NCBI GenBank assembly: GCA_012031415.1
Contig: JAAUTN010000030.1
Span: 1-33,756, forward strand
DNA: 33,756 nucleotides
Origin: Leptolyngbyaceae cyanobacterium SM1_4_3
GTDB lineage: Bacteria > Cyanobacteriota > Cyanobacteriia > Elainellales > Elainellaceae
Direction: 5' to 3'
This document shows positions 24,699 to 32,230 of this stretch, piece by piece. A program made the translations under genes and the position numbers. Under the pieces are notes generated by a model, which saw only the letters and a list, made by a program, of their open reading frames with translations, did not search any database and was not told the origin of the DNA. Position 1 is the first letter of the stretch, and the number at the start of each line of letters is the position of its first letter.

Positions 24699-26000
24699 TT
24701 AAAAGCCTTCTGGGTCTTGCCCCGCAGGAGGAACAAGTTTGGCTTTAGGTTTTTGATCCAACTGAACTGCCTGCTGTAACGCAGCCTTTTCCCTGGCTCT
24801 TTGAACATAAGGCTGTAGCTGCGTGACAGCCCAACCGCTGAGAATACTTAAACCGTCCAGACTCATGCCCTTCAACAGCATTTCTACGCACCAGGTTTGC
24901 CGTGCCTGCTCAATTTGTAGCGATTGTCCGGATGGCGTAGTCAAGTTTTCTACCCAAATCTGCCAGCGCAGCCGAAGTTCTACTTCTGAAATTGGGCTTC
25001 CTGCTTCATTCAGAAATAGCGCAGACTGAGTATCCTTGCGGGTTTTGAGCCATTGTGTCAGGGGATTACGAGTCGCCGAGCCATAGCGCTGTCCCATGAT
25101 CCACTGATTCAGGGGAACTTGACGAAACGTTCCTTGATTAATCTGAAGCAGATGTTGATGGATGTCTTGAACGTAGTGCGATCGCCGCAGCCCAGAAACC
25201 TCTGAAGGACTTAAACCTGCCCCAAACAGAACATATGCCAGGGCATAGTCTTGAGTATCTAGCTTTTTTGCTCGCTGTAAGATTACGTGAACCAGGCTAG
25301 CAGGCAAGTCAGCCGTGCTTTGTTTTGGACTTGCCAAACCAGGCTGAACTTCATTGGTGTCATCTGGTTTATCAAGCGTTGAGCGGTCGCCAGGTTGTTC
25401 TGAAGCCAGCATACTGCCTCGAAGCAATAGCTTTACCAGATCAGTGATGAAATCGTGGCGATCGCCCCAAAGCTGGTGAAATTCGCTAGTCAATTCCAAC
25501 ATGGCATATCCTAACAGCGCCAGGTTGAGGAATCCAGCCAGCTTTTCTACAGAAAAGTAATCTAGCGACTGCTCCTGAAGCACCGTTGCTAAATATTGCG
25601 CCGTGTAGTGATTGACCTGATTTAGCCCATGACCTAATGCCTGTCGATTTTCCAGAGAATATTTACCCGCCTCGCCAATTAGCGATCGCACAAGTTCTGG
25701 CATCTGATCTAGCTTCTGCAAACATTTTCCACCATAGGTACTAAACGCCTGAGCCACATCATCCGCATCGTTTGCCGTTTGCCCTAGAGATTCTCCCAAG
25801 CGAGTAAAAATTCGCGTGTCTTCAATTACCGCTAAGAGCAAGCCATGCTTGTTGCCAAACTGCCGAAACAGCGTCACTTCATTCACATCTGCTAGCTCAG
25901 CAATTTGTCGAGTCGTCGTCTCAGTAATGCCTTGAGCCGCAAATAGCTGAAGCGCCGCCTGAATCAAACGCTGTCGAGTTGAACTAGGTTGATGACTCAT
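24699..26000 (-). CDS. TetR-family regulator fused to a degenerate tyrosine-recombinase-like domain
   Basis: A 433-aa protein, about twice the usual TetR length. Residues 8-60 are a TetR helix-turn-helix (RQRLIQAALQLFAAQG, TTRQIAELADVNEVTLFRQFGNKHGLL) and residues about 65-200 a helical ligand/dimer domain. After a polar linker (about 200-230), residues 231-405 resemble the catalytic fold of tyrosine recombinases: FGAGLSPSEVSGLR, then QGTFRQVPLNQW, IEQARQTW, LSILSGW and PYVQRARE. The first catalytic Arg position appears to be Ser264 and the usual HxxR His is Glu364, while Arg367, Trp390 and Tyr398 remain, so recombinase activity is unlikely. It is divergent from the desaturase gene and probably represses it and itself. 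The domain assignment is by eye. Confidence 0.7.
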   Translation of the reverse strand: MSHQPSSTRQRLIQAALQLFAAQGITETTTRQIAELADVNEVTLFRQFGNKHGLLLAVIEDTRIFTRLGESLGQTANDADDVAQAFSTYGGKCLQKLDQMPELVRSLIGEAGKYSLENRQALGHGLNQVNHYTAQYLATVLQEQSLDYFSVEKLAGFLNLALLGYAMLELTSEFHQLWGDRHDFITDLVKLLLRGSMLASEQPGDRSTLDKPDDTNEVQPGLASPKQSTADLPASLVHVILQRAKKLDTQDYALAYVLFGAGLSPSEVSGLRRSHYVQDIHQHLLQINQGTFRQVPLNQWIMGQRYGSATRNPLTQWLKTRKDTQSALFLNEAGSPISEVELRLRWQIWVENLTTPSGQSLQIEQARQTWCVEMLLKGMSLDGLSILSGWAVTQLQPYVQRAREKAALQQAVQLDQKPKAKLVPPAGQDPEGF

Positions 26001-26008
26001 TGGAAAGA

Positions 26009-26025
26009 TGCAAGTGGTACTTGCA
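26009..26025. promoter_or_regulatory. Operator 1, perfect palindrome TGCAAGT-GGT-ACTTGCA
   Basis: Seven-bp perfect arms with a 3-bp centre, 9 bp upstream of the regulator ATG and overlapping the -35 box of the desaturase promoter. Its size and symmetry suit a TetR dimer. Binding here could block both divergent genes. Confidence 0.7.
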
Positions 26026-26049
26026 TTTGCACGGGAACATTGCTATGCT
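26021..26049 (+). promoter_or_regulatory. Candidate promoter of the desaturase gene
   Basis: TTGCAT (26021-26026) and TATGCT (26044-26049) are separated by exactly 17 bp. Each matches four of six consensus positions of a sigma-70-type promoter. Transcription would start at about 26056, inside operator 2. Confidence 0.5.
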
Positions 26050-26054
26050 GAGAA

Positions 26055-26071
26055 TGTAAGCAACACTTGCA
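26055..26071. promoter_or_regulatory. Operator 2, TGTAAGC-AAC-ACTTGCA
   Basis: It matches operator 1 at 12 of the 14 arm positions, including an identical right arm. Its centre is 46 bp from that of operator 1. It lies at the predicted transcription start of the desaturase gene. Confidence 0.6.
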
Positions 26072-26197
26072 CTCTTCTTTTACTGTAACGGTATTCCTAC
26101 CGCGTGAAGCCAAACTAACGAAAAGGAAAATTTAACTTCCTCCAGTGGCTTTCCTGAGTGGGCTGGATTGATGCAAGGCACTTTCTAAGGAAGATTT

Positions 26198-27058
26198 ATG
26201 ACTTCTAATTCTATTCATGCTGCCCCCGACAGCGGCGAGTCTCTGGTGCTAAATTGGGTAAACGTCATCTTTTTTGGCACAATCCATCTTCTGGCCCTGC
26301 TGGCTCCCTGGTTTTTCTCCTGGTCGGCTCTGGGTATAGCTATCTTTTTGCACTGGTTGCTTGGCAGCATTGGCATCTGTCTAGGCTATCATCGCCTCCT
26401 GACACACCGTAGCTTTCAGGTGTCTAAACCGCTGGAATACGTTATCGCTACCATTGGCGCACTGGCACTCCAGGGAGGTCCTATTTTTTGGGTTTCTGGG
26501 CACCGCCAACATCACCTCTACACCGAAGATGAACACAAAGATCCCTACGCTGCCAGTCGCGGATTTTGGTGGAGTCATATGCTCTGGTTACTTTACCCTC
26601 GTGCCCAGTTTTTCAAACGGGAAACCTATCAAAAGTACGCGCCTGATCTAGCTCGTGACCCTTACTATCGCTGGCTCGATCGCAACTTTTTGCTACTGCA
26701 AATTCCCCTCGGATTGCTGCTTTTCGCTCTAGGCGGTTGGTCTTTTGTAGTCTACGGCTCAATCTTGAGGGCAGTGTTACTCTGGCATAGCACTTGGCTG
26801 ATTAACTCTGCCACTCACATGACTGGCTACCGCTCCTTTGAAGTAAAAGACGGATCTCGGAATCTCTGGTGGGCAGCCCTGCTTACCTACGGGGAAGGCT
26901 GGCACAACAATCATCACGCTCATCCGAATGTGGCCAAAGCAGGCTGGAAATGGTGGGAATTGGACATTACCTGGTGGGCGATTCAAGCGCTAAGAATGAT
27001 GGGTTTAGCGAAAAAAGTAGTCACGCCGCCTCAAACACCAGTCTCTATCAATCAATAA
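26198..27058 (+). CDS. Acyl-lipid/acyl-CoA-type fatty-acid desaturase, delta-9 (DesC-like)
   Basis: A 286-aa integral-membrane di-iron desaturase that introduces a double bond into a fatty acyl chain, controlling membrane fluidity. The three histidine boxes are HRLLTH (65-70), HRQHH (102-106) and HNNHH (236-240), with hydrophobic spans between them. The compact length and box pattern match the cyanobacterial delta-9 (DesC) group. It is transcribed divergently from the TetR-like fusion, with two palindromic operators around its promoter, and ends at a strong terminator. The exact regiospecificity cannot be read from sequence. Confidence 0.9.
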   Translation: MTSNSIHAAPDSGESLVLNWVNVIFFGTIHLLALLAPWFFSWSALGIAIFLHWLLGSIGICLGYHRLLTHRSFQVSKPLEYVIATIGALALQGGPIFWVSGHRQHHLYTEDEHKDPYAASRGFWWSHMLWLLYPRAQFFKRETYQKYAPDLARDPYYRWLDRNFLLLQIPLGLLLFALGGWSFVVYGSILRAVLLWHSTWLINSATHMTGYRSFEVKDGSRNLWWAALLTYGEGWHNNHHAHPNVAKAGWKWWELDITWWAIQALRMMGLAKKVVTPPQTPVSINQ

Positions 27059-28070: not shown

Positions 28071-28934
28071 TCAAGGCGTATTGACAGCAAAAATGTCTGG
28101 AACAGCCGATAGTCCCTTGTAAGCAAGAATTTCCTTAGCAGGTTTGCGATCGCCATTACAAGCAATTCGCCGAGGGGCATCTAGCAACTGAATAGAAAAG
28201 CCGAAGCTACTGTATAGCTCAATAATTCGATCTGTTGCCTGATTTGAGGCCACAACGGGGCCGTTATGATGCTGTAACCATTCTGCTAGCCGAATTTGGT
28301 CTTGCCACTTAAAGTCGTTTGCACTGTATTTGGTGAACTCTACATCATAGGGCGGGTCAGCATAAACGAAGTCATCGGAGTGAGTTGGCAGCCTTGTGAA
28401 ATCCATTGAGACAAACTCAAATTTCTTCAAAGCATTGATGTAAGACAAAAAATTTTCAACGTAGTGAATCGTTTTGTATCGACCAAAAGGAACGTTAAAC
28501 TGGTTGCTGTTATTAAATCGACATAGCCCATTATATCCGGTGCGATTCATAAAATAGAACAGCTTGGCTGCATCCAAACTGTCTGCCTGGTCATTACGAA
28601 CTAATTCATTGAACCTTTGCCGACAAAAATAGTAATAGTCAGAATCATTCTTTAAAGGGATATCAATCAGCAGCCCTTTTTGTAGCCAGCGGTAAAAGTT
28701 GATTAAATGCGAGTTTAAATCATTGAGTAAAGCTGACTCAGGCTGTAACCCCAGCGCAACAGCCATCCCTCCTACAAAGGGTTCTACTAATCTGAAGCTG
28801 GAATGCGACCCCTGGCTGACATCTCGAAGAGATCGCCAAATCCTCCTTAAAACTGGCACTAACCAGCGCTTCCCGCCGGCCCATTTAAGAGGAGGACTCA
28901 AAACTTCATCTCTGGCTAATAAAGCTTGAGCCAC
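28071..28934 (-). CDS. Dam-like DNA adenine-N6 methyltransferase
   Basis: A 287-aa D12-class methyltransferase that transfers a methyl group from S-adenosylmethionine to adenine. The order is PPLKWAGGKRWLVP (14-27), the SAM-binding EPFVGG (51-56), RTGYNGLCRFN followed by FNVPFGRYK (131-154) and the catalytic DPPY (193-196). The NGLCR/NVPFGRYK segment is strikingly like E. coli Dam, so GATC is the likeliest target. It has no adjacent restriction gene and therefore looks solitary. The GTG start at 28934 has GAGGAGA upstream. Cyanobacteria often carry solitary GATC methylases, and HIP1 (GCGATCGC) contains GATC. Confidence 0.9.
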   Translation of the reverse strand: MAQALLARDEVLSPPLKWAGGKRWLVPVLRRIWRSLRDVSQGSHSSFRLVEPFVGGMAVALGLQPESALLNDLNSHLINFYRWLQKGLLIDIPLKNDSDYYYFCRQRFNELVRNDQADSLDAAKLFYFMNRTGYNGLCRFNNSNQFNVPFGRYKTIHYVENFLSYINALKKFEFVSMDFTRLPTHSDDFVYADPPYDVEFTKYSANDFKWQDQIRLAEWLQHHNGPVVASNQATDRIIELYSSFGFSIQLLDAPRRIACNGDRKPAKEILAYKGLSAVPDIFAVNTP

Positions 28935-29246: not shown

Positions 29247-30614
29247 ATGTCACCGTTTTCATTGGTTTTTATTGCGGTCTTAGGAGTTGCATTTCTCTTA
29301 TTTCTTGTAATTAAAGTTCGACTTCAGGCATTTGTTGCGCTACTGTTATCCAGTTTTCTGATTGCGTTACTAGCCAGGGTTCCGCTGCAAGATATTGCAG
29401 GTGTGATTCAAGAAGGAATGGCTAACACGATGGGCTATATCGCCATTGTGGTAGGTCTGGGTACGATGTTTGGCGAAATGTTGCGAGTAACGGGAGGTGC
29501 AGAACGACTCGCAGACACGCTAGTTGGCAGTTTTGGTAAAGAGCGTGCCCAGTGGGCACTAGCACTAACAGGGCTTATTGTGGCGATACCTGTCTTTTTC
29601 GACGTGGGTCTAATTATTTTGATTCCACTGGTTTATAGTTTGGCACAGCGAACAGGACGTTCTCTCCTATATTATGCGTTGCCCCTGGCAGCAGGGCTAG
29701 CCATCGCTCATAGCTATATTCCTCCAACGCCGGGACCCGTTGCGGTTGCTTCGCTGCTCGGAGCAGATCTAGGTTGGGTCATTCTATTTGGGATAATCGC
29801 GGGGGTTCCTGCCGTAATCGTCGGTGGAATTTTCTTTAGCAAATACATTGCTGGAAAAATTCATGTCGAAGTGCCTCAATACATGATGCTGGAAAATCAA
29901 ACTCAACAAACTGAAGATGATTTTTCTAGAGTGTCCAAAGAGCCGCCCAGTTTTGGAGTAATTATTTCAATTATTGCAATTCCACTCGTGTTGATTTTGC
30001 TCAATACTATTGCTGGAGTTGTGTTGCCCGAAGATAACTTTGTGCGTAATCTATTGGTATTTTTGGGACATCCGTTTAGTGCTTTGTTAATTGCGGTACT
30101 GCTAGCCTTTTACTTCTTAGGAATTCGACACGGATATTCTCGTGCCCAAATTCAAGATATCGCGACCCGTTCTTTAGAACCCGTTGGTTTAATCATTCTG
30201 GTGACGGGTGCAGGTGGCGTTTTGGGGAGAGTCTTAGTTGAAAGTGGAATTGGCGATGCCCTCGCCGAACTGATGGCCGCATCCAATTTGCCAATTATTT
30301 TTCTGGCTTTCCTGATTGCAACGGCAGTACGGGTTTCTCAAGGTTCTGCAACCGTCTCAATGGTGACAGCAGCAGGCATCATGGCTCCAGTTGTTGAGGC
30401 AGGCAACTTTTCTGCCCCTCTAGTAGGGTTGATTACGATTGCGATCGCCTCTGGAGCCACTGTACTTTCCCACGTCAACGATTCCGGTTTCTGGCTAGTT
30501 AACCGCTACCTCGGTATGACCGAAGCAGACACCCTAAAATCTTGGACTGTCCTGGAAACAATTCTGGGCGTAGTCGGCTTTTTAGTCGTGTTTATAATTA
30601 GCTTCTTTGTCTAG
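29247..30614 (+). CDS. Gluconate:H+ symporter, GntP family
   Basis: A 455-aa inner-membrane transporter of the GntP family, which takes up gluconate or related sugar acids with protons. It is hydrophobic throughout with about 12 likely spans. Family features include QEGMANTMGYIAIVVGLGTMFGEML, HSYIPPTPGPVAVASLLGADLG, VTGAGGVLGRVLVESGIGDAL and SGATVLSHVNDSGFWLVNRYLGMTEADTLKSWT. The gene is followed by a gluconokinase on the same strand, supporting gluconate as the substrate. The strong AGGAGGT ribosome site fixes the start. Confidence 0.92.
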   Translation: MSPFSLVFIAVLGVAFLLFLVIKVRLQAFVALLLSSFLIALLARVPLQDIAGVIQEGMANTMGYIAIVVGLGTMFGEMLRVTGGAERLADTLVGSFGKERAQWALALTGLIVAIPVFFDVGLIILIPLVYSLAQRTGRSLLYYALPLAAGLAIAHSYIPPTPGPVAVASLLGADLGWVILFGIIAGVPAVIVGGIFFSKYIAGKIHVEVPQYMMLENQTQQTEDDFSRVSKEPPSFGVIISIIAIPLVLILLNTIAGVVLPEDNFVRNLLVFLGHPFSALLIAVLLAFYFLGIRHGYSRAQIQDIATRSLEPVGLIILVTGAGGVLGRVLVESGIGDALAELMAASNLPIIFLAFLIATAVRVSQGSATVSMVTAAGIMAPVVEAGNFSAPLVGLITIAIASGATVLSHVNDSGFWLVNRYLGMTEADTLKSWTVLETILGVVGFLVVFIISFFV

Positions 30615-30698: not shown

Positions 30699-32230
30699 AT
30701 GAATTCAACTTACTTTATTGGTGTTGATGTAGGTACAACCAGTACTAAAGCAATTGTTTTTTCTGCCTCAGGTGCAAGTAAGGGTGCTGGCAATCAAGGA
30801 TATCCTTTGCTGACTCCTCATCCATCTTGGGCAGAGCAGGAGCCAGAAGCTATCTTCACCGCTGTTATTGCTGCGGTTCGCGATGCCGTTAATCACGCCC
30901 GAATCGCAGCGTCAGAAGTGACTGCGGTTGGCTTTAGTGCAGCAACCCACAGCCTGATCGCAGTAGACCCTAAGGGCTATCCGCTGACTCACAGTATCAT
31001 CTGGGCGGACAACCGAAGTACCCCTCAAGTGGAGCGTCTGAAGGGCAGCGGAAAAGGATACGAACTCTATCAGCGCACGGGCGCACCTACGCATCCCACT
31101 TCTTTAGTGACAAAGCTGCTGTGGATGCAGGAACACGATCCGGAGACGTTCAGTAAAGCTGCCAAGTTTGTATCTCTTAAAGAGTACGTTCTCCATCAAC
31201 TCTTTGATGAATACGTGGTGGACTACTCTATTGCTTCTGCAACAGGCCTGTTTAATCCTGAACAGCTAGATTGGGATGAAGAAGCACTGGCGATCGCAGG
31301 GTTAAAGCGATCGCAGCTAAGCCAACTTGTGCCAACTACTCACATATTACGAGGTCTCAAACCCCGTTACGCAGAAGCAATGGGTTTAGCGATTGATACT
31401 CCAGTGGTGGTAGGTGCAAATGACGGAGCGCTAGCAAACCTGGGTGTCGGAGCAATTACCCCAGAACAGATAGCAATCACGATTGGTACAAGTGCTGCGG
31501 TGCGAACTGTTGCTCACGAACCGCTGATCGATCCAAAAGAACGTACTTTTTGCTACGCACTCACTAAGAACCATTGGGTAATTGGTGGCCCGTCAAACAA
31601 TGGTGGAATCGTGTTGCGCTGGCTGCGAGATCAGTTCTGCCAGGCAGAAATAGTGCAGGCGAGGCAGCTAGGAGTTGATCCTTATGATCTGATGATTCAG
31701 TCGCTGCGACTGTTTCTGCCGGAGCGGAAGGATTAATCTTTTTACCCTTTCTATCAGGCGAACGAGCGCCCTACTGGAATGCCAATGCAAGAGGCTCATT
31801 TTTTGGGTTGGGACTTCACCATCAGCGATCGCACCTGATTCGAGCGGTTTTGGAAGGCGTACTGTTTAGTGTCTACAGCATCTACTTGGCGCTGCAAAAC
31901 CTGACAGGCTCAGCACAGGTGATTCGAGCATCAGGTGGCTTTGCTCGGTCAAAGGTCTGGAGACAAATGATGGCTGATTTGTTTCAAGCAGAAGTTTTAG
32001 TTCCAGAAGTGTACGAAGGCAGCAGTTTTGGTGCAGCAGTGCTGGCTATGTATGCGGTCAACCTCATAAAGAACCTTGAGGAGGTTCAGCAGCTAATTCG
32101 TATCACCTACCGCCATCAACCCAATACTGTCCATGCATCTACGTATCATGAACTGTTTGAAATTTACGAACGTCTTTACCAAAATACAGTTGAGGAAGCC
32201 GCTCGTTTAGCTGCTTATCAGGTGAAGTAG
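30699..32230 (+). CDS. Gluconokinase, FGGY family, apparent frameshift
   Basis: An FGGY-family sugar kinase predicted to phosphorylate gluconate to 6-phosphogluconate, feeding the oxidative pentose phosphate or Entner-Doudoroff route. The N-terminus has the phosphate-binding FIGVDVGTTSTKAIVF and the central region has IWADNRS and TIGTSAAVRT. The first frame stops at 31736 after a foreign tail (RLFLPERKD). The frame that carries SAGAEGLIFLPFLSGERAPYWNANA and ends at 32230 is its true continuation. Restoring one base at 31700-31703 gives 511 codons including the stop, a normal length. The break is probably a sequence error. It lies 84 bp after the permease gene. Confidence 0.9.

Follow-up and report, generated by a model that had tools for sequence, protein, structure and literature searches.

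The regulator gene described here lies on the minus strand in a window of 33,756 nucleotides (the whole stretch of Leptolyngbyaceae cyanobacterium SM1_4_3 DNA that was analysed) and encodes a TetR protein fused to a domain which, on the basis of structure prediction, is a tyrosine-recombinase catalytic core with its fold kept and its chemistry lost. It is likely to be a dedicated regulator of the adjoining desC2-type desaturase gene, acting through two tandem putative operators, O1 and O2 (Table 1); judged only from where these sites lie, it probably represses that gene. The likely target, the tandem operators and the promoter enclosed by them go beyond an earlier, sequence-only reading of this DNA. 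The arrangement points to a dedicated switch for membrane lipid unsaturation in many cyanobacteria.

Domain organisation of the regulator

The gene is a 433-aa open reading frame with an ATG start. The sequence-only reading had proposed a TetR repressor fused to a tyrosine-recombinase-like domain, and the fusion was borne out by Pfam, in which both TetR_N (residues 12–58; E 3.4e-13, 49.6 bits against a cut-off of 24) and Phage_integrase (residues 238–392; E 1.1e-9, 38.8 bits against a cut-off of 27.1) score above their cut-offs, the latter also being matched in 47 of 56 relatives. The NCBIfam matches to TetR and XerC/XerD are partial and far under cut-off, and a plasmid-borne relative is annotated merely as a TetR/AcrR family regulator. 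An AlphaFold2 model of the whole protein, for which the input was an alignment of 56 relatives, has a mean pLDDT of 84, with a low-confidence linker at residues 198–226. Residues 3–200 of the model match TetR structures with Z scores of 15–17 and include the all-helical ligand/dimer domain; by structure comparison the fold of this domain resembles those of FadR, DesT and further TetR proteins, the DesT structure with palmitoyl-CoA (3lsj) being amongst the matches.

Table 1. Features of the regulator–desaturase locus (positions in the window)
Feature	Position	Strand	Basis or remarks
Regulator gene	24699..26000	-	TetR half, residues 1-200; variable linker, about 198-228; predicted dead tyrosine-recombinase core, about 231-416
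Predicted dead tyrosine-recombinase catalytic core, residues 231-416	24753..25310	-	PF00589; XerA Z 20.9; catalytic set missing
TetR_N helix-turn-helix, residues 12-58	25827..25967	-	PF00440
Operator O1 (putative), TGCAAGTGGTACTTGCA	26009..26025		Conserved across 90 regions; genome's only perfect match
Predicted -35 of desaturase promoter, TTGCAT, inside O1	26021..26026	+	Column conservation
Predicted extended -10, TGCTATGCT, 17 bp past -35	26041..26049	+	-10 register in 73/86 loci
Operator O2 (putative), TGTAAGCAACACTTGCA; predicted transcription start near 26056	26055..26071		Conserved palindrome
Predicted DesC2-type Delta9 acyl-lipid desaturase gene, 286 aa, probable target	26198..27058	+	PF00487; histidine boxes; divergent neighbour

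A recombinase core without its catalytic residues

Residues 228–433 modelled alone gave a mean pLDDT of 91. The best structural match of this C-terminal domain is XerA (Z 20.9 over 174 residues, rmsd 3.6), after which rank XerH, Tn1549 Int, Cre and lambda Int, with the repressors SroF (Z 13.5) and MrpR/YopR (up to 12.4) lower in the order. With a profile of the segment as query, the archaeal XerC-like protein 4a8e was retrieved at 6.7e-8, and the profile searches returned no family other than tyrosine recombinases; model and profiles thus agree with the recombinase fold proposed earlier for the segment.

The catalytic positions were placed via the 4a8e profile alignment, which is less sure in the loop containing Q289. 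At these positions the window protein has S264 (first Arg), Q289 (Lys), E364 (His), R367 (second Arg), W390 (His/Trp) and Y398 (Tyr), that is S-Q-E-R-W-Y against the catalytic set R-K-H/K-R-H/W-Y. Ser264, Glu364, Arg367 (in QARQTW), Gly389-Trp390 and Tyr398 are all found where the sequence-only reading had put them, and the loss of catalysis which it had suspected for this protein extends over the family, the full set being present in 0 of 99 proteins. Arg stands at position 264 in 4 of the 99. Position 367 is split almost evenly between Arg (45) and Gln (46), and Tyr is kept at position 398 in 74, with Leu or Phe there in about a quarter of the relatives. An active recombinase was rejected on these residue counts across the 99 proteins, and the regulator, going by its sequence, is almost certainly not a recombinase.

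No core-binding domain precedes the catalytic core, a disordered linker and the TetR domain standing there instead. Mean pairwise identity is 56% in the recombinase-like domain, 48% in the TetR ligand domain and 11% in the linker; the C-terminal domain is conserved without catalytic residues and has therefore been under selection for another role. After the VPL strand it carries a family-specific stretch, NQWIMGKRYGSYTxNPLTQWLKSRKD, in place of a shorter recombinase segment. Its net charge is near-neutral (mean +0.4), and its conserved basic residues include R293 and R305.

Distribution and history of the fusion

In a survey sample of 244 genomes drawn from the phylum, the C-terminal domain is present in 25, with one copy each and always as part of a long fused frame. 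The TetR half that goes with it is found in 27 of the 244 and is fused in 25 of these 27, the lone forms being those of genomes G010 and G028. The fusion is found, as a single uninterrupted frame, in dozens of genomes of cyanobacteria; a chance fusion or assembly artefact was rejected given its conservation across many independent genomes. On the tree, the lone TetR protein of G010 is placed among fused proteins, suggesting loss of the domain. Loss is likewise suggested by the shortened protein of G017, which retains the first domain residues (VADLPDATVHSLLQHAKK), although the contig stops at that point and the desaturase is broken too. The tree positions of the lone TetR protein of G028 and of the proteins of G037 and G226 are unsure, these lying on long branches.

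A further genome with the fused regulator is G037, which comprises one contig (4,659,019 bp), encodes six homologues of Delta9 desaturase and is taken here to be Gloeobacter violaceus PCC 7421. Six Delta9-desaturase homologues have been published for Gloeobacter violaceus (PMC2593844).

A scan of viral contigs returned no relative of the regulator, and an origin as a phage gene was rejected on that basis; a plasmid gene was rejected in the same way, since the plasmid collection holds one copy only, on pP742403 of Gloeothece citriformis PCC 7424 (NC_011730.1), with a desaturase gene adjoining. On this mobilizable plasmid the desaturase–regulator pair (locus L119, 3292–5573) lies near a gene for an orange-carotenoid-protein N-terminal domain, and the pair can therefore move as a unit. 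A further regulator, on a contig titled Candidatus Gracilibacteria (L056), groups with those of Hydrococcus and Cyanosarcina; this is probably a mislabelled or contaminated cyanobacterial contig.

The neighbouring desaturase gene

Of 106 loci, a set with some same-species duplicates, 94 have a fatty-acid (Delta9) desaturase gene as the divergent, immediate upstream neighbour of the regulator, and no other conserved partner gene stands beside the regulator in these 106 loci. Histidine box 3 of the window desaturase is an exact fit to clade Delta9-1, with R for K in box 1 and L for A in box 2; clade Delta9-1 of Chi et al. is the DesC2 (sn-2) clade. The other desaturase paralogue in the genome (L112) fits clade Delta9-2, the DesC1 clade. 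Typed by motifs alone, the neighbour is a candidate DesC2-type Delta9 desaturase, for which sn-2 specificity is predicted.

Elsewhere in the window, a GntP permease gene (29247–30614) adjoins an FGGY sugar kinase which is split, on the plus strand, into an N-terminal domain (30699–31736) and a C-terminal domain (31808–32230); the split reflects either a frameshift in sequencing or a gluconate-type kinase gene that is broken. Also present is a gene for a D12-class adenine DNA methyltransferase (28071–28934, minus strand), which has no restriction partner among the scanned neighbours.

Putative tandem operators and the predicted promoter between them

The intergenic region contains two 17-bp palindromes of the form TGYAAGYnnnRCTTGCA. 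Allowing up to two mismatches, the palindrome is found in 90 of 90 non-redundant intergenic regions, against 0.25 expected from shuffles, and the O1–O2 distance is 46 or 47 bp in most of them. In the 7.8-Mb genome of the window there is a single strict match to the motif, and the relaxed motif is found only as the O1–O2 pair. Across the 40 genomes searched for both TetR type and motif, a tandem pair of strict motifs is present in 22 of the 26 with the regulator's TetR type and in 0 of the 14 without it. Motif sites elsewhere in the genomes are rare, isolated and near the frequency of a reversed control pattern, and a regulon beyond desC2 was rejected for this reason. A second DesC2-type gene, in G001 (L118), is without the operator.

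The protein would be expected to bind the palindromes, which stand at the expected place in all 90 regions, and the operator is assigned to the TetR half because lone-TetR relatives retain it. G010 and G017, in both of which the C-terminal domain is missing, keep both operators; the operator pair can thus exist without the domain, and a strict link between the domain and the second operator was rejected. The most divergent lone-TetR locus (L114, 3160–3380; G028, contig of 3,046,682 bp) keeps O1 and the promoter layout, and its O2 is degenerate at best.

Between the operators, the conserved columns mark a TTG at -35, inside the O1 right arm, and TGnTAnnnT as an extended -10; column conservation across the intergenic region brought out no third DNA motif at constant spacing from the operators. 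The -10 lies at the exact register in 73 of 86 loci, where shuffled spacers would give 3.1 and the reverse strand gives 3. The predicted desaturase promoter is enclosed, with O1 over the -35 and O2 over the predicted start. With transcription beginning there, desC2 would carry a leader of about 142 nt (26056–26197), in which there is no Rfam match to an RNA element.

In G037 the regulator is followed by the desaturase on the same strand, the two operators occupy the gap between the genes, upstream of the desaturase, and the predicted promoter is TTGCAT-17-TACGAT. With the gene order altered and the operators still upstream of the desaturase, the operators appear to follow the desaturase promoter; this arrangement is the best evidence for that promoter as the probable target.

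Proposed mechanism and alternatives

In the mechanism we propose, TetR dimers would bind the two tandem palindromic operators through their helix-turn-helix domains and, by covering the -35 and the predicted start, would keep RNA polymerase off desC2; it is this placement of the operators which implies repression. The regulator's own gene is probably controlled too, autoregulation being suggested by the position of O1, 8 bp upstream of the regulator start codon. By analogy with DesT and MadR, the TetR half would come off the DNA on binding a hydrophobic ligand, which is probably an acyl chain carried by ACP, CoA or a lipid. Such a ligand is plausible given a ligand-domain fold close to FadR and DesT; acyl-CoA-binding TetR-type repressors of desaturase genes are known, namely DesT (with palmitoyl-CoA) and MadR (PMC8872791).

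Two operators would hold two dimers and hence four C-terminal domains, the number in a recombinase synapse, and for this reason our preferred guess is a clamp: the C-terminal domains would most likely tie one dimer to the other or grip the intervening DNA. A role in assembly is nevertheless a tentative proposal, to which we give somewhat less than an even chance. The fuller picture, in which four dead cores assemble in a synapse-like manner on O1/O2 and lock the desC2 promoter, having been inactive as enzymes since early cyanobacterial history, is doubtful; the early date is proposed because both the fusion and the loss of catalysis are already seen in the probable Gloeobacter protein. Were this picture true, the assembly of a recombination machine would have been retained as a transcription lock. 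One point against the proposed mechanism as a whole is that the O1–O2 dyads are 46–47 bp apart, about 4.4–4.5 turns, which would put the two dimers near opposite faces of the DNA.

The C-terminal domain could instead be a second DNA-binding module which grips promoter DNA between or beside the operators, in the manner of the phage dead-recombinase repressors. The sequence-only reading had suggested either a DNA-binding or a multimerising role for it. DNA-binding cores share the fold, among them the repressors MrpR and SroF; MrpR attaches to DNA but does not recombine it (PMC10516654), and basic residues such as R293 and R305 are conserved. We nonetheless give this reading only a minor share of the probability, since true recombinases complete their DNA clamp with a core-binding domain that is missing here and no conserved motif accompanies the operators and promoter; the near-neutral net charge of the domain may also tell against it. 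It is also somewhat improbable that the domain is a sensor or partner-binding module (for lipid, temperature or protein) with no part in DNA assembly: the recombinase fold has no known sensing role and the desaturase is the sole conserved adjoining gene, although such a module would suit a domain that is better conserved than the TetR ligand domain, has a conserved stretch of its own past the VPL strand, and is missing from some lineages which still have both operators.

As to the direction of control, activation of desC2 is unlikely. O1 stands at the edge of the -35 and some TetR proteins do activate, but sites that overlap the -35 (O1) and the predicted start (O2) are placed as repressor sites usually are, and the good extended -10 of the predicted promoter would need no helper. 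Most improbable by far is a still-active recombinase or topoisomerase with a shifted active site; although the window protein retains R367, W390 and Y398, it has other residues in place of the first Arg, the Lys and the His, the Tyr gives way to Leu or Phe in about a quarter of relatives, and no relative has the full set. We thus retain repression by the TetR half, with the C-terminal domains tentatively assigned to assembly, as the preferred reading.

Comparison with known systems

Work on how cyanobacteria control their desaturases has centred on a few signalling kinases in model strains. If true, a dedicated regulator with one target and a defined pair of operators would give direct experimental access to membrane unsaturation in many lineages of the phylum, and would present a recombinase domain under selection without chemistry inside a cellular rather than a phage transcription factor. 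A search of openly accessible literature returned no description of a TetR–dead-recombinase architecture or of a TetR regulator of desC2. Phage dead-recombinase repressors and TetR desaturase repressors are each known; their joining in a cellular, widespread and apparently single-target regulator of desC2 was not found described in that literature.

We know of no recombinase domain on regulators of the DesT, FabR, MadR and FadR type. The window protein resembles these four in its TetR_N domain, its TetR ligand-domain fold, its palindromic operator (putative here) and the nearby desaturase gene, whereas they are plain TetR proteins of about 200 aa. The second half of Mce3R is a second TetR unit. 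Mce3R (about 400 aa; 9b7y) is, like the window protein, a TetR regulator of about twice the usual length, but the second half of the window protein is a predicted recombinase core. XerA, XerC, XerD and XerH have the same catalytic-core fold and are closest by both profile and structure; the window protein differs from them in its missing catalytic set, in having no core-binding domain, and in the family-specific stretch given above. In MrpR (YopR) of prophage SPbeta and SroF of phage phi3T, a dead tyrosine-recombinase fold is reused for repression (PMC10516654), and these repressors and the window protein alike have the recombinase fold without the full catalytic set (MrpR residues: PMC10516654 Table 3). 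MrpR and SroF are phage proteins with core-binding and catalytic domains and no TetR domain, whereas the window protein has the catalytic core only, is expected to read DNA through its TetR module, and is the product of a cellular gene.
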